Positions 14,571 to 35,968 of a stretch of DNA of 38,147 bases are shown here, piece after piece. The notes under the pieces were generated by a model. That model searched no databases and was not told the origin of the DNA. It was given only the letters and a program-made list of their open reading frames with translations. Source of the stretch: Pirellula sp. (GTDB lineage Bacteria; Planctomycetota; Planctomycetia; Pirellulales; Pirellulaceae); NCBI GenBank assembly GCA_021300155.1, contig JAJTID010000054.1, positions 1 to 38,147 on the forward strand, in the 5' to 3' direction. The stretch's first letter is position 1. Each line of letters starts with the position of its first letter. A program made the position numbers and the translations under genes.

Positions 14571-15100
14571 CACCTCGACGTACCGCCTTACTGAAAACGG
14601 GGAAAGTGAATTGGTGCGTGACGCCGAATGCGTCGGATGGAAACAGGGACCCATCTATCGATGTTTTTTCTAGTTTGCTTTTTTGGGGTACAAAGCTCTG
14701 GATTGGTATGACTGACCAAGTTCTTGCGGAGATCTACTATGACGACCCTCAAAGCGCTAAATTAGTTGCGCGGTGCATGAGGACTGGAAAGGTACTATGG
14801 GAGTACATGCATCCACGGGCCCAGCTTGAACCATGGCTCGGGGATACGCACTTCTTTGAGGTAGAACAGATGGCAGTGGCATCAGTTGCAATGAAGAAGT
14901 CGCATTGGGTTCCATCGCAACTTCTGATTTTCAACACCGAAACCAAATCAATAGACTTTGTATTGAGTTGCTGGAATATTCTTGCCCCAGGGTCGCGAGG
15001 AGTTGTCTTGCGGATTGAATCAAATCCGCGATCGTATTGGCCGTTATACTTGTCTCTCCATTCATCGGGAACGGCCTGTGGGTCGTTCGGAGCCTGGTAG
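14564..15100 (+). CDS. Doubtful hypothetical ORF, 3' part antisense to a sulfatase fragment
   Basis: The frame opens with MATPRRTALLKTGK inside the last repeat copy and is free of stops for 179 codons. The first 140 residues have ordinary composition and no recognised motif (IFNTETKSIDFVL near the end is vaguely propeller-like). The last 35 residues run through sequence that on the other strand encodes a sulfatase fragment, so the C-terminus cannot be original. If it was ever a gene, it is now truncated and fused to foreign sequence. It sits between the ATPase and recombinase remnants in a region of rearrangement. Confidence 0.25.
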   Translation: MATPRRTALLKTGKVNWCVTPNASDGNRDPSIDVFSSLLFWGTKLWIGMTDQVLAEIYYDDPQSAKLVARCMRTGKVLWEYMHPRAQLEPWLGDTHFFEVEQMAVASVAMKKSHWVPSQLLIFNTETKSIDFVLSCWNILAPGSRGVVLRIESNPRSYWPLYLSLHSSGTACGSFGAW

Positions 15101-27691: not shown

Positions 27692-27777
27692 TTATTCAAC
27701 TTGCTCTGTCGTGTTGCCAATCAGTCCACCAGCAGCCATCTTGATTCGACCTTGAGCATATCCGTTTTGCCACTCAT
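27692..27777 (-). pseudogene. CsbD-like short duplicate overlapping the catalase 3' end
   Basis: From the ATG at 27777 the DNA reads ATGAGTGGCAAAACGGAT, almost identical to the start of the intact csbD-like gene at 29521 (one difference in 18 bases). It continues to match over about 70 bases if one G is restored at 27750-27751. It would encode about 28 residues (MSGKTDMLKGRIKMAAG...) before a stop, half the normal length. It is best read as a partial duplication of the csbD gene that landed at the end of the catalase-like gene. Confidence 0.6.
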
Positions 27778-29332: not shown

Positions 29333-29521
29333 TCATTCGGATACTTTTTCAACAACTTTTTCGACCGCTTTCTTAACCGTATCCGCCACCTTTTGAACGA
29401 CTTGCTTGGCCTCGCCGACAGCTTGATCGGACCTGCCCTCCTCGCGAAGAGCGTCGTTGCCCGTCAGTGCGCCAGCGGCCTCTTTGATTCGACCCTTAAT
29501 CACATCTGTTTTGCCACTCAT
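29333..29521 (-). CDS. csbD: CsbD-family general stress protein
   Basis: The 62-residue protein opens MSGKTDVIKGRIKEAAGALTG and continues NDALREEGRSDQAVGEAKQ, the standard CsbD fold of small stress proteins. The C-terminal third is a Val/Lys-rich amphipathic helix. GGAG at 10-13 nt before the ATG is a good ribosome-binding site. It lies 31 nt upstream of the cupin gene in the same direction. A truncated near-copy of its 5' end occurs at 27777. Its product accumulates under general or osmotic stress in other bacteria; no reaction is known. Confidence 0.88.
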   Translation of the reverse strand: MSGKTDVIKGRIKEAAGALTGNDALREEGRSDQAVGEAKQVVQKVADTVKKAVEKVVEKVSE

Positions 29522-30210: not shown

Positions 30211-30383
30211 CTCACGCTGTCCAACTTCGACATCAATTGCAGATCAAGTTTCGCTTGATATCAAGTTTTACGACTTAGGTGACGTGTAGGTCATCGAGAG
30301 AACTTCGAAACAGGCCTAGTGAAATCAACCAGTCTGCAAATTCGATCGAACTAGACTTTCGCTTTCTCGTTGATAAATAACAT

Positions 30384-30456
30384 GGCTTGCGAGTGTGATG
30401 GATTCGCACGACAGTCTTCGAAACTGTTAGACAAGGTTCGATTCCTTGGCGAGCTA
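30384..30456 (+). tRNA. tRNA-Arg (anticodon TCG)
   Basis: A complete 73-nt cloverleaf: acceptor GGCTTGC pairs with GCGAGCT (one G-U at each of two positions), D stem GTGT/GCAC, anticodon stem ACAGT/ACTGT with loop CTTCGAA. The anticodon TCG is at 30418-30420. The T arm is CAAGG-TTCGATT-CCTTG. Discriminator base A; no encoded CCA. First member of the array. Confidence 0.88.
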
Positions 30457-30467
30457 CTCGGCAACAT

Positions 30468-30562
30468 GGTGCGGTGCGCGAATTGGCATAGCGACTGCGA
30501 CCACCCCTTCGTCGGTGGTGCCCGAACCTCAGTGTTTGTGGGTTCGAGTCCCACCCTCACCA
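30468..30562 (+). tRNA. tRNA-like gene, class II size, anticodon unresolved
   Basis: Acceptor GGTGCGG pairs with CCTCACC (one C-T mismatch), and the T arm GTGGG-TTCGAGT-CCCAC is perfect. The D arm CGC...GCG with AATTGG is tRNA-Leu-like. In the 95-nt total the anticodon arm cannot be drawn cleanly: one choice gives four pairs around ACCCCTT, another gives six pairs around an 8-base loop. It may be a degenerate tRNA. Confidence 0.55.
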
Positions 30563-30570
30563 CTAATGAC

Positions 30571-30644
30571 GACGTGGTACGCGAACTGGTACAGCGGCGA
30601 AGCTTAAACCTTCGTGATTGCGGGTTCGAATCCCGCCTGCGTCA
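30571..30644 (+). tRNA. tRNA with leucine anticodon TAA and short variable arm
   Basis: The 74-nt cloverleaf has acceptor GACGTGG/CTGCGTC, anticodon stem CGAAG/CTTCG perfect with loop CTTAAAC, and T arm GCGGG-TTCGAAT-CCCGC perfect. The anticodon TAA is at 30605-30607. The variable loop is only TGATT, whereas bacterial tRNA-Leu normally has a long variable arm. Discriminator A fits leucine; no encoded CCA. Confidence 0.82.
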
Positions 30645-30658
30645 CTCGAAAGATACAT

Positions 30659-30743
30659 GGGTCGATTGGACTTGGGAGTCCATGCCGTCTGTAAAACGGT
30701 CGCTCCTCGATGAGCAATGTAGGTTCGATTCCTTCTCGGCCCA
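30659..30743 (+). tRNA. tRNA-Tyr (anticodon GTA)
   Basis: The 85-nt gene has acceptor GGGTCGA/TCGGCCC, anticodon stem GCCGT/ACGGT and loop CTGTAAA. The anticodon GTA is at 30691-30693. A long variable arm is built on GCTC/GAGC, as expected for bacterial tRNA-Tyr. The T stem GTAGG/CCTTC has one T-T mismatch. Discriminator A. Confidence 0.85.
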
Positions 30744-30756
30744 CTGATGTGAATAT

Positions 30757-30830
30757 GGCTCGGTGCGATGTTGGTATTTGCAGTCAGCCCCTCAAGCTGG
30801 CGTTCACCGGTTCGATTCCGGTCCGAGTCA
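30757..30830 (+). tRNA. tRNA, probable anticodon CTC (Glu)
   Basis: Acceptor GGCTCGG/CCGAGTC, T arm ACCGG-TTCGATT-CCGGT perfect, anticodon stem TCAGC/GCTGG. The loop CCCTCAA puts CTC at 30791-30793, but position 33 is C instead of the nearly universal T, so identity is uncertain. Last member of the left block; the minus-strand WD40 gene begins 62 nt further on. Confidence 0.7.
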
Positions 30831-30892
30831 CTCAGCGACTTTTGAGTCTTGGAAGTGATGGGCGGCGAATAAGCTCGATGGAAAAATTTGAG

Positions 30893-32512
30893 TCACCGGG
30901 CAAGGGAGGGATCCAACGTTGACTCCAACTGTCCGGTGGCGACGTTCCAAAAGCGAATTGCTTGGGCACCCTCAAAATCCCAAGTGCCACCTTCACCGGT
31001 CGCCAATAGCTTTCCATCTGGAGAGAATGCAATAGATTTAACATCTACAGGGTGTTGAAGTACCCCAATTGCCTTACCCTGCTCGCAATCCCATAGTACT
31101 GCGACCTTTTCGTAACTTCCGTAGGCAAACATGTCATTAATTGGGCTAAAGCGTAATGAGGTTACCCGCTGTACTTGGTTGGGAATAGTCACAGGGCGCG
31201 AGATGTCTTCTAAATCCCAGGTGGTAATTACTCCCTCCCAACTAACGCACGCAAGTCTCGTTGAATCATATGAGAACGCCACCTGCATCGAACTCGAAGG
31301 GACAGAATTCAGCAAGGTCGTTTTTTCTGAGGCGAACTTCAAATCCTCTATGTAGACCAAGAAACCTATCGGCTTGGGTACTGTAGTATGATACGTATAC
31401 GCCAACTTGCTTGCGTCACGAGATAGTGCGACGGACATCACGTCAAATTTTGCGTCAAATCTCGCTAATTCTCCACCGTCGGATACCCTTGTAAGTCTTA
31501 CTGTATTGTCCCTACCGGCAGTCGCGATTGTCGATCCATCGCCGCTAAATGCAATGTCAAGTATTTCGTCAAAGTGCCCCTCGATAGTGCGTTTAATCTC
31601 ACCTGTTTTGGTCGAGGCAAGTACTACCTTCGACTTGGCGTGTGTTCCACCGGGTCCTTCGGTGACCCCATAAGCCAGTACGTCACCCATCGGTGAAAGT
31701 TCGTAGCAGTCAGGATATTTGTCCGGAAGTGAAAAGCGATAATCAACCTGCTTCGTCTGCAGATTCCAAACGATAATTGACTTATTCACCTTCAAATCGT
31801 AAATGGTGCCGTCTAGGTTGGTAATGTTCGAGTACAACTTATCGTCGCTCGGAGAAAAAGCAACGAAATCGACTCGCTGCCACTGCGGTTTCTTTTCTTG
31901 CTTGCTCCAAATGATAACACTCGCGCTAATCGCTATACCAATCAGCATAAGCAATCCATAGGAGGGCACCCTAAGATGATGAAGTTGGACATCTTCTCGT
32001 TTGAACTTGCTATAAGCAATCGCCAAGAGAACGTGGGAGCAAATCCATGTACCTGCCCCGAAGTATATACGATTCTCAGGGTGGTATCTGAAATCGAAGT
32101 CAAGAAACCCTTTCAATCCTGAAAACAAACTCAGCGTAGTTGCGGCCATGGCGATTCCGGGATTGAAGCGAGACAAATAAAACATCCTGTCTGACTTGCA
32201 CAGTAACATGAGATAGGCAAGTACGAATAGTATGTTCGCGACTGCCGACATCATGCCCGGCGGGGTTAGTATTAAAGGGCTAAAACTTAAGTAAACGACT
32301 TGCCAGCCGTAGAATAAACCGCTCGCATTGTTCAGTCGGGGTATCTCCAATGCTTGTATCTTCAGTGCTGGTAAAAACAGCGAAACAAGTAGCATGATGA
32401 GTGCCATGTGTGCGATCTTTTTCGAAGTAGGACGCACGTAATAGCAAAAGCAGAATGCGACGAGTGATGGGAGAATTGCTCCGGCTAGGCCACCAAGGAT
32501 TTGTTGCAGCAT
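30893..32512 (-). CDS. Multi-span membrane protein with C-terminal WD40 propeller
   Basis: The 539-residue protein has about six membrane helices in its first 200 residues (for example GLAGAILPSLVAFCFCYYV and LMLIGIAISASVIIW), with no catalytic motif in that part. Residues about 215-539 form WD40-type repeats: FSPSDDKLYSNI, IAFSGDGSTIATAGRDNTVRL, LRFSPINDMFAYGSYEKVAVLWD and IAFSPDGKLLATGEGG. It would sit in the inner membrane with a propeller in the cytoplasm or outside, depending on the number of spans. WD40 propellers bind proteins. It lies inside the tRNA array and on the opposite strand, so it was probably inserted there or the array was built around it. It resembles the propeller of the nearby kinase in type, not in obvious sequence identity. 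Confidence 0.85.
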   Translation of the reverse strand: MLQQILGGLAGAILPSLVAFCFCYYVRPTSKKIAHMALIMLLVSLFLPALKIQALEIPRLNNASGLFYGWQVVYLSFSPLILTPPGMMSAVANILFVLAYLMLLCKSDRMFYLSRFNPGIAMAATTLSLFSGLKGFLDFDFRYHPENRIYFGAGTWICSHVLLAIAYSKFKREDVQLHHLRVPSYGLLMLIGIAISASVIIWSKQEKKPQWQRVDFVAFSPSDDKLYSNITNLDGTIYDLKVNKSIIVWNLQTKQVDYRFSLPDKYPDCYELSPMGDVLAYGVTEGPGGTHAKSKVVLASTKTGEIKRTIEGHFDEILDIAFSGDGSTIATAGRDNTVRLTRVSDGGELARFDAKFDVMSVALSRDASKLAYTYHTTVPKPIGFLVYIEDLKFASEKTTLLNSVPSSSMQVAFSYDSTRLACVSWEGVITTWDLEDISRPVTIPNQVQRVTSLRFSPINDMFAYGSYEKVAVLWDCEQGKAIGVLQHPVDVKSIAFSPDGKLLATGEGGTWDFEGAQAIRFWNVATGQLESTLDPSLAR

Positions 32513-32708
32513 CGATTACCTCCGAGAAAGTGATCCCACCCGCCAAAACCGCGCAAGTCACATGGGATAGGTGAGTCCGAAAAATTCCGCCTGCTGAAAC
32601 TTAGGCAATTCCTGACCGGAATCGACAAGCATTGAGGCGCCAACTGTCAACCAAGCGTTTCTCACACCTTGCAGTTTGTCAAGAACACCAATGGATTGTA
32701 CTCCAAAT

Positions 32709-32776
32709 TGCAGGCTAGTTGGGACTGAGCTGACTTTCATAAGGTCGGTAACCCGGTTCGATTCCGGGGCTTGCAA
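32709..32776 (+). tRNA. tRNA-Met-like (anticodon CAT), short D arm
   Basis: Acceptor TGCAGGC/GCTTGCA, anticodon stem TGACT/GGTCG (two wobble pairs) with loop TTCATAA. CAT is at 32738-32740. The T arm is CCCGG-TTCGATT-CCGGG perfect. At 68 nt the D arm is short. CAT could also be the precursor of the AUA-reading isoleucine tRNA. First member of the right block; the next gene starts 2 nt after it. Confidence 0.75.
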
Positions 32777-32778
32777 CT

Positions 32779-32847
32779 TGCGGGTGGGCTAGTGCTCATC
32801 TGAGCCTCATAAGCTCGGACTGCCAGGTGCGACTCCTGGACCCGCCA
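32779..32847 (+). tRNA. tRNA-like, anticodon CAT (Met or Ile2)
   Basis: Anticodon stem TGAGC/GCTCG with loop CTCATAA places CAT at 32808-32810. T arm CCAGG-TGCGACT-CCTGG has G where T is expected at position 55. Acceptor TGCGGGT/ACCCGCC has a mismatch at the first pair, and the D arm is hard to draw. A second CAT tRNA beside the first. Confidence 0.6.
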
Positions 32848-32854
32848 TTTATAT

Positions 32855-32930
32855 GGTTGAGTACGCAAACCGGAAAAGCGACTTGGTCGAGAGCCAAGTG
32901 ATTCTGCAGGTTCGACTCCTGTCTCAACCA
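32855..32930 (+). tRNA. tRNA with leucine anticodon GAG and short variable arm
   Basis: Acceptor GGTTGAG/CTCAACC is perfect, D stem CGC/GCG, anticodon stem CTTGG/CCAAG perfect, loop TCGAGAG. GAG is at 32889-32891, with C at position 33. The T arm is GCAGG-TTCGACT-CCTGT. The variable loop is only 7 nt, so this is a second leucine-anticodon tRNA without the usual long arm. Confidence 0.75.
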
Positions 32931-32941
32931 CCTTGTTTGAT

Positions 32942-33014
32942 GATCGCGTGGTCCAGCGGCTAAGACACCTGCATGACACGCAGGAAATCGAAGGTTCAAT
33001 TCCTTCCGCGATCA
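32942..33014 (+). tRNA. tRNA-Val (anticodon GAC)
   Basis: A clean 73-nt cloverleaf: acceptor GATCGCG/CGCGATC, D stem GTC/GAC, anticodon stem CCTGC/GCAGG with loop ATGACAC, T arm GAAGG-TTCAATT-CCTTC. GAC is at 32975-32977. All stems are perfect. Discriminator A. Confidence 0.88.
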
Positions 33015-33025
33015 CTGAAGGTAAT

Positions 33026-33096
33026 GGTTTGTAAGTGTTCCGGGAGCACGCGTTCTTGGTAAGAACGAAGATCGAGTTCGATTCTCGAACGAACCT
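33026..33096 (+). tRNA. tRNA-Thr (anticodon GGT)
   Basis: Acceptor GGTTTGT/ACGAACC (one T-G), D stem GTG/CAC, anticodon stem CGTTC/GAACG perfect with loop TTGGTAA, T arm TCGAG-TTCGATT-CTCGA perfect. GGT is at 33058-33060. Discriminator T, which fits threonine. Length 71. Confidence 0.88.
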
Positions 33097-33107
33097 CTTT
33101 ATGAAAT

Positions 33108-33197
33108 GGGGTCATGGTCCAGTGGGAAGACATTGCCATGGCATGGCGAACAGTGTCTTCCCTGCGGGAGCGGCTCGTTCGAATCTCGGTGACTCCA
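33108..33197 (+). tRNA. tRNA-like, anticodon GGC with long variable arm
   Basis: Acceptor GGGGTCA/TGACTCC, D stem GTC/GAC, anticodon stem TTGCC/GGCGA with loop ATGGCAT. GGC (alanine) is at 33140-33142, but an alanine tRNA should not carry the 23-nt variable arm seen here. The T loop is conserved but its stem GCTCG/CTCGG does not pair. Possibly degenerate. Confidence 0.55.
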
Positions 33198-33208
33198 CTC
33201 AGAAACTT

Positions 33209-33293
33209 GGAAGGTAGCCAGATACGGTTTGCTGGGCTGCACTGCTAACGCAGTTCTCGAATAGAGATGAGGGTTCGACTCCCTTACCTTCCG
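33209..33293 (+). tRNA. tRNA-Ser (anticodon GCT)
   Basis: Acceptor GGAAGGT/ACCTTCC perfect, D stem CCAG/CTGG, anticodon loop CTGCTAA with GCT at 33244-33246. A long variable arm is built on TCTC/GAGA, and the T arm is GAGGG-TTCGACT-CCCTT. Discriminator G and the long arm are both as expected for tRNA-Ser. Length 85. Confidence 0.9.
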
Positions 33294-33328
33294 CTTCGTT
33301 GGTTCAACCGATTGTTCAAAGATGATAC

Positions 33329-33400
33329 GGCTCGATGGTGAAGCGGACATCATCTCTCGCTTCTAATGAGAAGTTCCAGGTTCGATTCCTGGTCGAGCTG
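33329..33400 (+). tRNA. tRNA-Arg (anticodon TCT)
   Basis: Acceptor GGCTCGA/TCGAGCT (one G-T), anticodon stem TCTCG/TGAGA with loop CTTCTAA, T arm CCAGG-TTCGATT-CCTGG perfect. TCT is at 33362-33364. Discriminator G fits arginine. Last member of the array, 35 nt after tRNA-Ser. Confidence 0.88.
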
Positions 33401-33440
33401 CTTGAATTTTGAATTAAGAAGTTTGAAGTTTGAAACTCAA

Positions 33441-33544
33441 TCACGGGATTTCTTGATGATGGTTGTAAGAATAGCAATGAGTTCATTGGACTCAGCAATC
33501 AATGGTTCCATCTGTTCTGTGAATTGCACGATCCTTGCCTGCAT
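33441..33544 (-). pseudogene. C-terminal remnant of a four-helix-bundle (23S rRNA IVP-type) protein
   Basis: A 34-residue frame reads MQARIVQFTEQMEPLIAESN and then ELIAILTTIIKKSRD. This matches the last helix of planctomycete four-helix-bundle proteins related to 23S rRNA intervening-sequence proteins. It overlaps the 3' end of the kinase gene in another frame (to 33492). The kinase coding sequence therefore probably ends in foreign sequence left from this gene. The match is short. Confidence 0.4.
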
Positions 33545-35846
33545 AGAAAAGAAACCGGTCATTTTGATCGAGGCATAGACTATGAATTTCCCTATGGGGT
33601 AGTTGCCATGTCTTTTCTGCTCCGAGTGTCAGGGGATTCAGGAGACGGATAACTCCCTCATAGTCTGAGCTGGAAAGTACCGCCTGCCCATTCTGGAATG
33701 GCTTCACAAAATTAATCCTCTGCTCCCCTTCGGCAGCCGTTTGTGATAAAGGTTTTCCAGAATCTGCATCCCAACGCTGAGTATGAACATAGGAGCCGGT
33801 ATATACCTCACGTCCATCCGGGCTGAAATGAACGCCACCTATGTTGTTTAGGAATCCTCGACATTTCGAAACCTCTTGAAAGGTCGATGCATTTAAAATT
33901 ACGATGAAGTCCTCGAAATTGAATTCCTCGTCACTCTTCTGCTGAGCAACGGCAACTCGATTGCCATCAGGACTGCAGCAGATGAAACCGACGCTACCGA
34001 TTGGGACTTTGGCTTTTACTGACGCCGATTCGATGTCCCAGACAAGCAAAGAATTTTCCGCACTTGTACAACTCCAGAGCTCGCGACCGTCTTCTGTAAA
34101 ACAAACATTGGTCACGGGTGAATCATGACCTTTCAACACCTTGACTTCCCTTCCTGTCCCAACATCCCAAATGCGAATGGTTTCATCTTGTCCTCCACTT
34201 GCTAGTAGCTTTCCATCAGGGCTGAAACACTCACAGTAAACGGTGCCTTCGTGGCCTCGTAGAACAAGTCGTGATTGATCTAGCATCGACTCAGCATGCC
34301 AGTATTCAATGTTTCGCAATCGTTCTGGAGTTTGGCTTAACAGCTTGTGGGCTAAGTCCAACGAGCCTTCTTCGATTTTGGCCATGGCCAATTGCACGTT
34401 GCTTCGGTAGAGATACAGTTCGGATTTCTCTCGCTGCTTCGCTTCGTCTTCGCGGGCTTCCTTGGCAACCTTTTCTGCTTCTCGAGCTTTACTTGTTTCC
34501 GCCAACGCAACCTGCTCTTTTTGCGTTGCTTTTTCTTCCGAGATCATCGCGCGTATGGCTAGTATCGAACTGACCGCTGACGCAGCGAGCAAAAAGATCG
34601 CAAATAAAGAGGCGACCGTAACTACGAATCGATTCCTTCTTACAGCCTTGCCGAATCGATATCGCCACGTTGGAGGTCTAGCTTCGATGGCATCGCCAGC
34701 CAAATAACGCTGGACATCGTTGGAAAAGCTGGTGGCAGACTCGTAACGGCGGGAGCGGTCTTTTTCTAACGCCTTCATCACGATCCAGTCGAGATCACCC
34801 TTGAGCTCACTTTGCAGTTTATTGCTATCGATTTGGCGTTGGCTGCTAATATCCGACAATCGATTTCCTGCAGAGCTCAGGCGAGCGCTCGGACGAGGTG
34901 GATCGGTCTCGCGAATCGATTGCAATACCCGCAGAACCGCTTGTTGCTCAAGCGTCTCTCGCTCGATCGGCGTGGAACCTGTCAGCAACTCGTAGAGCAA
35001 TACCCCCAGGGCATAGATATCGGCCCGCGTGTCGACATCGACAGCATCCAGTTCTGCTTGTTCTGGGCTCATGTATTGAAGAGTACCAACAACGGCTCCA
35101 AATTCGGTGAACAACGTTTTTTCGGTAAGCTGCGGTTGATTCCCCCAAGCTTTGGCCAGCCCAAAATCGATTACCTTTGGAACGGGCTTGCCGTTATAGA
35201 CAGCGACCAAAATGTTGGACGGTTTCAAATCGCGGTGAATGATCCCTTTTTGATGCGCGTGGTGGACCGCTTCGCATATGCTGGCAAAGAGTTGCAGTCG
35301 AGCCACAATAGTAAGGCGATGTTTATCGCAATACTGGGTGATGGGTAGCCCCTGGACGAGCTCCATCACAAAGTAGGGTTGTCCATCGTCGGTCGTTCCT
35401 CCGTCGAGCACTCGAGCGATCGAAGGATGATCCATCATGGCCAATGCTTGCCGTTCGGCCTCAAAGCGTGCGATGATCTTATCGTTATTGTTCCCTGCCT
35501 TGATCAACTTCAATGCAACGCGACGTTTCACAGGTTCCAGTTGGTCGGCCATCCAGACCTCTCCCATGCCTCCCGCCCCGATCTTCTGAAGCAATTTGTA
35601 TCGTCCTGCGATGACTTTGCTTTGGGCGTTCGGAGTGGGTTTTCTTAGAACCACTTCCTCGACAGACTGCGTTGGCAAGTCGGCTGCATCGCGTACCCGA
35701 TCAAGGTCGTCCAGGAACTCTGCTAAACGAACGGCATGCGAGGGATGTTTTGCGAACAATTCATCGCGTGAGATTGCTTGCCCCGATTCGATCGCTTGGA
35801 GATACTGGGCGATGATGGCATCGAGTTCTTGGCTGGAATCGGACAT
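33492..35846 (-). CDS. Ser/Thr protein kinase with membrane span and WD40 repeats
   Basis: The ATG at 35846 fits the typical opening MSDSSQELDAIIAQYLQAIE of planctomycete PknB-like kinases; the upstream in-frame TTG is less likely. The kinase domain (about 82-350) has the loop GAGGMGEVW, Lys113 in ALKLIK, HRDLKPSN with Asp206, DFGLAK with Asp228 and GTLQYMSPEQ. A juxtamembrane segment leads to one span (FVVTVASLFAIFLLAASAV) near 420. A Lys/Glu-rich coiled coil follows, and then WD40 repeats (RGHEGTVYCECFSPDGKLLA, IRIWDVGTGREVKVL). The propeller has perhaps five blades and ends abruptly in sequence shared with an IVP-like remnant, so its last blade may be missing. It would sense through the extracytoplasmic propeller and phosphorylate proteins inside. 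It lies 91 nt from the end of the tRNA array. Confidence 0.92.
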   Translation of the reverse strand: MSDSSQELDAIIAQYLQAIESGQAISRDELFAKHPSHAVRLAEFLDDLDRVRDAADLPTQSVEEVVLRKPTPNAQSKVIAGRYKLLQKIGAGGMGEVWMADQLEPVKRRVALKLIKAGNNNDKIIARFEAERQALAMMDHPSIARVLDGGTTDDGQPYFVMELVQGLPITQYCDKHRLTIVARLQLFASICEAVHHAHQKGIIHRDLKPSNILVAVYNGKPVPKVIDFGLAKAWGNQPQLTEKTLFTEFGAVVGTLQYMSPEQAELDAVDVDTRADIYALGVLLYELLTGSTPIERETLEQQAVLRVLQSIRETDPPRPSARLSSAGNRLSDISSQRQIDSNKLQSELKGDLDWIVMKALEKDRSRRYESATSFSNDVQRYLAGDAIEARPPTWRYRFGKAVRRNRFVVTVASLFAIFLLAASAVSSILAIRAMISEEKATQKEQVALAETSKAREAEKVAKEAREDEAKQREKSELYLYRSNVQLAMAKIEEGSLDLAHKLLSQTPERLRNIEYWHAESMLDQSRLVLRGHEGTVYCECFSPDGKLLASGGQDETIRIWDVGTGREVKVLKGHDSPVTNVCFTEDGRELWSCTSAENSLLVWDIESASVKAKVPIGSVGFICCSPDGNRVAVAQQKSDEEFNFEDFIVILNASTFQEVSKCRGFLNNIGGVHFSPDGREVYTGSYVHTQRWDADSGKPLSQTAAEGEQRINFVKPFQNGQAVLSSSDYEGVIRLLNPLTLGAEKTWQLPHREIHSLCLDQNDRFLFYAGKDRAIHRTDGTIDC

Positions 35847-35968
35847 TGTTCGCAATCGTTTTGAAAAGTTTGGCTTTGGAGGTGCGATAGTCTAATAGAC
35901 GAGGAATGGGCTCGCACGGACCACTAGGGATTCAGAATTATTTTTCAAGTTAGTAATCGATTGAGTCC

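Follow-up and report, generated by a model that had tools for sequence, protein, structure and literature searches.

What is the run of closely spaced tRNA genes at positions 30384-33401 of contig JAJTID010000054.1 from Pirellula sp. (assembly GCA_021300155.1, 6.46 Mb in 260 contigs; the whole stretch of 38,147 nucleotides analyzed here is referred to as the window), and does it serve its host, a phage, or neither? Comparison with related genomes leads us to the answer that it is a fragment of a mobile cassette, itself decaying. As judged from sequence, its identity as such a fragment is very probable, and we assign a probability of roughly 0.58 to the fuller reading, in which the window holds a broken copy of a mobile translation-rescue cassette. 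The complete cassette would comprise an ordered array of up to 43 divergent tRNAs covering 17-20 amino acids, an HNH endonuclease gene and a ribonucleoprotein module, the latter usually being Ro60 with several Y RNAs and, in four loci, an SPFH/Band_7 protein with a tRNA-like RNA. The planctomycete origin proposed in the original prediction agrees with the planctomycete names of the nearest relatives.

The original prediction described thirteen tRNA genes on one strand, one of them left without an identity. ARAGORN calls twelve, all on the + strand between 30384 and 33401, and the thirteenth is a pseudogene. The array, with the open reading frame (ORF) that splits it, reads as follows.

30384..30457, + strand: tRNA-Arg(TCG) (ARAGORN; Rfam, 35 bits; aligned with three relatives)
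30468..30562, + strand: pseudogene, homologue of tRNA-Leu(CAA) (Rfam, 32.3 bits; alignment)
30571..30645, + strand: tRNA-Leu(TAA) with a short variable arm (ARAGORN; Rfam, 54.7 bits)
30659..30744, + strand: tRNA-Tyr(GTA) (ARAGORN; aligned with relatives; Rfam tRNA-Sec below the cut-off)
30757..30831, + strand: tRNA-Glu(CTC), the sole anticodon outside the ordinary set (ARAGORN; local Rfam search)
30893..32512, - strand: WD40-repeat ORF splitting the array (ORF and domain match; comparison with locus L044)
32709..32777, + strand: first tRNA with anticodon CAT (ARAGORN; conserved in four compared copies; no Rfam match)
32778..32848, + strand: second tRNA with anticodon CAT (ARAGORN; conserved in four compared copies; no Rfam match)
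32855..32932, + strand: tRNA-Leu(GAG) with a short variable arm (ARAGORN; Rfam, 45.2 bits)
32942..33015, + strand: tRNA-Val(GAC) (ARAGORN; Rfam, 61.5 bits)
33026..33097, + strand: tRNA-Thr(GGT) (ARAGORN; unchanged in L043 and L044, missing from the C219 copy; no Rfam match)
33108..33198, + strand: tRNA-Ala(GGC) with G3:U70 (ARAGORN; Rfam, 26.6 bits, below the cut-off; same in L043 and L044)
33209..33294, + strand: tRNA-Ser(GCT) (ARAGORN; Rfam, 36 bits)
33329..33401, + strand: tRNA-Arg(TCT) (ARAGORN; Rfam, 54.5 bits)

The member at 30468-30562 exceeds the Rfam tRNA cut-off of 29 bits and is not called by ARAGORN; its alignment with three relatives reveals a 21-nt insert that removes the anticodon loop, and it therefore reads as a Leu(CAA) pseudogene. 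In the same kind of alignment the anticodon stem of Arg(TCG) exhibits a compensatory change from A-T to G-C. The number of the 13 members that pass Rfam is 8 in the whole-genome search, 7 in a permissive local search and 5 when fast filters are used. In the second of these searches Ala(GGC) remains below the cut-off, Tyr(GTA) is matched only as tRNA-Sec (39.5 bits, against its cut-off of 47), and neither CAT gene nor Thr(GGT) gives a match at E<=10; the support for these five genes comes from ARAGORN and from homologues at the same place in relatives. The intergenic gaps measure 0-13 nt, with two exceptions: the last gene is preceded by 34 nt, and the end of Glu (30831) and the start of the first CAT gene (32709) are 1,877 bp apart. 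In this interval the WD40 ORF lies on the opposite strand, and L044 has just Leu(CAG) there. None of the twelve ARAGORN tRNAs encodes CCA, as had been noted; the same is true of all 39 ordinary tRNAs of the genome, and CCA is encoded in only 1 of the 1,029 tRNAs of related arrays, so its absence is not a special property of the array in the window.

When the array was sought in related genomes, as had been proposed, the same genes were recovered in the same order. The array DNA of the window is matched in 23 of 60 genomes of the genus, family and order (its own included), belonging to 16 of 34 genera, and the homologous genes form a single array in relatives, with 37 tRNAs in L044 (from a single-contig genome), 42 in L055 (42 anticodons, all 20 amino acids) and 43, the largest number, in L132; the thirteen large arrays checked cover 17-20 amino acids. 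With a tRNA array unit defined, after Morgado and Vicente 2018 (PMC5966550), as at least 20 tRNA genes at a density of at least 2 per kb, 26 of 102 loci qualify, two of the 26 being viral contigs; the 102 comprise four loci from the genome of the window, 20 stretches from relatives, 80 Ro60 loci less four duplicates, and L143 and L150. Gene order was assessed as the longest common order of anticodons against shuffles (1,000 for the window). The window shares 11 of 12 anticodons in order with L044 (shuffle maximum 8), 10 with L055 (shuffle maximum 9) and 9 each with L043 and the phage contig L143; the 7 shared with the phage contig L150 are a level also reached by shuffles. Among the fuller arrays the common order amounts to 31 of 37 between L044 and L055 (shuffle maximum 14), 38 between L055 and L132, and 21 of 31 between L137 of Rhodopirellula rubra and L044, while nine pairs of the planctomycete type give 16-38, with shuffle maxima of 10-15. 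The gene order of the window is shared with its relatives beyond chance.

At the fuller loci the array is followed by the HNH gene, Y-RNA-like genes and a Ro60 (TROVE) protein. The Ro60 census was a protein search, as the TROVE profile of Pfam alone misses the Ro60 of genome G009; an alignment-based scan of the species-genome collection returned 100 relatives, of which 80 were kept, with record titles that presumably all bear planctomycete names except that of L070 ("bacterium"). In L001, vWA_Ro60 and TROVE are found above the Pfam cut-offs, and the NCBIfam Rsr model is below its own (90 vs 900 bits). Among the 44 Ro60 loci with at least 5 kb upstream, 32 have a same-strand tRNA upstream, 24 have five or more and 21 have ten or more, and tRNAs on the other strand or 3' of Ro60 number only 10 in all 80 loci. 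The Y-RNA-like genes upstream of Ro60 start with ACTGCC-N2..6-GGANTACA, a motif present at 61 of 69 Ro60 loci with 1 kb upstream (1-8 per locus), in 189 copies upstream of Ro60, 4 after the gene and none on the opposite strand; when all loci were base-shuffled 20 times, 3 copies arose in total. Full pairing between the five bases that precede the motif and the five that follow a later TTCGY occurs in 126 of the 203 distinct elements (31 expected when the ends are swapped), with 40 different sequences. T-arm and D-arm motifs occur together in 37 elements, and in these the T arm precedes the D arm, the arrangement of a permuted tRNA. One element is matched by the YrlA model of Rfam, below the cut-off (39 vs 69 bits).

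The divergence of the host species was gauged with the rplK-rplA-rplJ-rplL segment (Pfam L11, L1, L10, L12), which in G009, G006, G021 and G002 is 77-81% identical to that of the window's genome. The array at 32700-33402 is 90-99% identical to the same four genomes, and the part at 30375-30832 is 88-90% identical in three of them; towards G009 the value for 30375-30748 is 79%, and the order differs there. On contig C219 of the window's genome, Ro60 is 92-94% and HNH 89-94% identical. The array, HNH and Ro60 DNA, mostly 88-99% identical against 77-81% for the ribosomal-protein genes, indicates that the cassette moves between species. G024, 96% identical at the ribosomal segment, has neither an array match nor Ro60.

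A second copy lies on C219, where 314 nt match window 32707-33016 at 97% identity and 197 nt match window 33207-33403 at 92%. It continues through HNH and tRNAs for Trp and Thr to Ro60, which is adjoined by a remnant of peptidyl-tRNA hydrolase 2 (PTH2), with a P4-type primase nearby. Two further contigs, C208 and C103, have four tRNAs each near the contig end (87% and 92% identical to the G009 array, respectively), and several assemblies are broken at these arrays. The window, with twelve ARAGORN genes and one pseudogene in 3.0 kb, falls below the definition of an array unit. A protein search found no match to HNH, Ro60 or the other searched cassette proteins within it, and a motif search found no Y-RNA motif; the discriminator base of Arg(TCT) is G, as compared with A in three other copies. 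The guess that the array might be a relic is thereby strengthened: the destroyed member, the loss of Leu(CAG) where relatives have it, the changed discriminator and the missing HNH, Ro60 and Y-RNA matches indicate decay, and this copy is probably dispensable. Ro60 decays as well, with pieces scattered in G017, G009, G015 and the window's own genome.

In fuller arrays the tRNAs look chargeable. Identity elements for aminoacylation vary by isotype and include G3:U70 for Ala, the discriminator base 73, and C1:G72 for Pro. In a sample of 1,029 array tRNAs from 56 loci the acceptor stem has on average 6.87 of 7 pairs, TTC is present in 94%, U33 in 90% and a purine at 37 in 99%; G3:U70 is found in 48 of 55 Ala tRNAs, and the remaining elements also follow the isotype (Trp G73, 28/28; Cys U73, 21/21; Asp G73, 25/26; Gly U73, 51/55; His C73, 27/30; Pro C1:G72, 49/51). 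Forty anticodon classes have 12 or more distinct sequences each, 868 in all (13 small classes were skipped); pairing exceeds 100 shuffles in every one of the 40, with double changes at 484 of 844 pairs. Since shared descent alone can lift pairing above the shuffled level, and since ARAGORN favors paired sequences when it calls genes, we take the covariation as support rather than proof. It is the retention of identity elements together with compensatory changes that makes these genes appear to encode chargeable tRNAs.

Ro60 is replaced by SPFH/Band_7 in L044, L051, L054 and L057, the genomes of which have no Ro60 match other than one piece of 42 residues in G006. Conserved 5' of Band_7 in these four loci is a tRNA-like element in which the letters of the anticodon loop vary, and it is possible that it is the partner RNA of Band_7; Burroughs and Aravind reportedly linked, in 2016, TROVE with Y RNAs and Band-7 with a tRNA-like RNA. 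Weaker relatives of Band_7 (26-31%) occur in six Ro60 loci. HNH is matched in 33 of 110 loci (a count that includes four duplicates, here and below), and L045 adds an RNA ligase (TIGR02306 above the cut-off), PTH2 and endonuclease V. Selected neighbors with a role in defence include Gabija and BrxC (L137), a type I restriction-modification system and a PtuA-like protein (L084), SduA (L043) and a DrmD-like helicase (L098), with just weaker helicase matches in L044. The cassette is found in planctomycete contigs and chromosomes, where genes for defence against phages adjoin some of the loci, as well as in two viral contigs.

How might such a cassette work? Anticodon nucleases of a defence system, a toxin or a rival would cut the tRNAs of the cell; the array would then supply a replacement set unlike the ordinary one in sequence, provided that its members are expressed, charged, resistant to the nuclease and used. 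Ro60 with its Y RNAs would handle misfolded or damaged tRNA, and the ligase and the peptidyl-tRNA hydrolase, where present, may aid repair and recycling. We consider it an even chance that the cassette indeed replaces tRNAs under attack. A bolder extension, which we hold to be possible and put forward only tentatively, is that planctomycetes have in common with their phages a second decoding set, complete in itself, of ~40 divergent tRNAs in fixed order. It would be produced and policed alongside a Ro60 ring with as many as eight dedicated Y RNAs (or alongside a tRNA-like RNA and an SPFH scaffold), and would stay silent until the ordinary tRNAs are destroyed and then take over translation, a form of ammunition common to phages and cellular defence islands.

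Several observations weigh against the rescue cassette. No ARAGORN tRNA is found upstream at 12 of the 44 Ro60 loci with at least 5 kb there. Four Y RNAs folded singly gave z values of -0.89, -3.46, -1.45 and 0.15, only one clearly beating its shuffles; since single-sequence energies are weak, the case for the Y RNAs rests on position and covariation. RtcB is encoded on C71 and C154 and Ro60 on C219 and C62, so that no RtcB lies beside Ro60, and the repair genes are rare (RNA ligase in 6, PTH2 in 4 and endonuclease V in 5 of the 110 loci). Among 121 array Leu tRNAs 99 have a short variable arm, as against five ordinary Leu tRNAs that are all long, which makes their charging uncertain. A strict either-or of Ro60 and Band_7 was considered and ruled out by L073, which has both proteins; the two are therefore not strictly exclusive. 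The defence neighbors (10 proteins from 5 loci) were hand-picked as promising rather than sampled. Finally, the Ro60 of phage HyRo is only 22.9% identical, with no annotated tRNA in the 31.6 kb read around the Ro gene.

The strongest rival is that the cassette is purely a phage tool against tRNA-cutting defences and that its chromosomal copies, the window included, are the remains of dead prophages. Phage tRNAs that evade such defences are reported (PMC10264068 and PMC11555353). The original prediction saw no phage gene around the array, but among its relatives two viral contigs carry the same array, and so a link to phages exists. G061 (35 kb) encodes terminase, portal, head protease, decoration, major tail and tape-measure proteins, followed by 32 tRNAs, Y RNAs, HNH (91%), Ro60 (93%), PTH2 (90% to L045), ParB-like genes and a serine integrase, and matches both segments of the window at ~90%. 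In G060 (94 kb; terminase, portal, major head, tape-measure, polymerase, helicase and RNA ligase genes) 36 tRNAs for 20 amino acids, HNH and Band_7 stand between phage-type genes. An array within a contig with head and tail genes is thus a feature of these two records, which may be fragments or prophages, and not of the window; we infer the hosts of both from DNA identity. Further in favor of a phage tool are a serine recombinase at 5 bacterial array loci, ParB-like genes with a serine integrase of the G061 type at L098 and L054, the PTH2 remnant and the primase on C219, and the broken Ro60 pieces and the destroyed member described above. On the other side, a protein search with a selection of the head and tail genes of G061 and G060 found a single 27-residue match among the bacterial loci. 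Just 7 out of 49 array loci have the serine recombinase, and these 7 include the two viral contigs; it was seen at 1 of 53 other loci and at none of 9 control loci. The census is partly circular, as six of the seven supplied the model. The bacterial copies also maintain tRNA structure and identity elements. We regard the purely phage tool as unlikely, though deserving of serious attention, and prefer the mobile rescue cassette. A plasmid origin was considered and dropped, as no plasmid record matches the array DNA of L044 at E<=1e-8, and so was kinship with known phage arrays: 51 phage records match this DNA, and the 20 listed concern one 109-nt stretch.

Could the genes instead be decoys or regulatory RNAs, tRNA-like molecules that soak up nucleases or regulate and have no role in translation? 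The odd members, the Leu tRNAs with short arms and the nearby Y RNAs with permuted tRNA-like parts would fit such a role, but discriminator bases and G3:U70 track the amino acid, which a decoy would not need, and we find this explanation improbable. As had been suspected, the set is additional to the tRNAs of the host: among the loci fetched, the genome also has an ordinary set with 38 anticodons for 20 amino acids, and comparison with it reveals that the array tRNAs are not sole copies, every anticodon of the window except Glu(CTC) being duplicated there. Codon supplementation, in which the array would add anticodons missing from the ordinary set, fits Glu(CTC) and is otherwise rejected as highly improbable, since the ordinary set already includes 19 of the 20 anticodons found on the array pieces of this genome.

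Some further observations concern the surroundings of the arrays. The viral contigs L152, L184, L185 and L186 have an HNH relative together with large, differently ordered tRNA arrays, in which the Leu genes measure 72-88 nt (72-77 in most) and the Leu tRNAs mostly have short arms; a shared order of L152, L185 and L186 with L055 was tested and rejected (longest common order 8-9, shuffle maxima 11-13). A family of ~265 residues lies in or beside arrays (L055:9873-10664, L059:362-1159, L061:9680-10489; 9 of 110 loci), with no Pfam or NCBIfam match among the members scanned, and of the 33 loci that could be tested for it, 4 have a CoA-binding gene 5' of the array. The array HNH protein at L001:8108-8749 has the HNH parts of Cas9d and IscB as its best NCBIfam matches, far below the cut-off. 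At the usual place of Ro60, 3' of the array, L055:12776-14404 encodes 542 residues, among them a DVSAS stretch that resembles a vWA metal site; it has neither a Pfam or NCBIfam match nor a credible Ro60 alignment. Just 3' of the ribosomal protein genes, L007:11233-11979 encodes a group II intron reverse transcriptase; almost the same DNA is present in G003 and at other places in the genome. Within the window, 14587-15009 contains two stretches 84-92% identical to a PQQ-like ORF that is antisense between HNH and Trp in L043, and a direct repeat of 66 bp with 80% identity, at 27713-27777 and 29456-29521, lies close to catalase-like and cupin ORFs. The array is followed by:

33492..35855, - strand: protein-kinase/WD40 ORF, 3' of the array and outside the cassette in the relatives compared

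The purpose of large tRNA arrays and the role of bacterial Ro60 and Y RNAs are both open questions, and here the two are physically joined. The conserved order of the Ro60-array link, its presence in cultured strains and the repair genes beside some loci make the connection testable, and the analysis adds a set of 203 Y-RNA-like elements. Among the papers listed by our literature search, for which subscription papers were mostly beyond reach, none deals with Ro60 adjoining tRNA arrays in Planctomycetes. The individual parts are already known.

Among known systems, the Salmonella rsr-yrlBA-rtcBA operon likewise has a Ro60 orthologue, Y RNAs with a tRNA-like part and a tie to tRNA damage (PMC7790460); it differs in that no RtcB adjoins Ro60 in the window's genome, and up to eight Y RNAs and a tRNA array take its place here. 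Ro60 relatives were found in 356 of 50,697 phage records, all below 60% identity (195 from phages of Mycobacterium, 118 from phages of Streptomyces), and cluster C mycobacteriophages resemble the cassette in having ~30 tRNAs and a Ro-like protein (McGee, PMC9583779). The Myxococcus phage Mx1 (OR576727), compared as a phage record alone, combines tRNAs, TROVE (41% identical), a peptidyl-tRNA hydrolase, an RNA ligase and HNH in ~22 kb, but its tRNA region is looser and has another order. The closest likeness in form is to tRNA array units: in mycobacterial arrays HNH is the most widespread gene, and arrays of cluster C phages have PTH2 (PMC5966550). The arrays described here, where they qualify as units, agree with them in their fixed order, their redundancy with the ordinary set and the frequent presence of HNH, and differ in that they lead into Ro60 and Y RNAs or into SPFH/Band_7.

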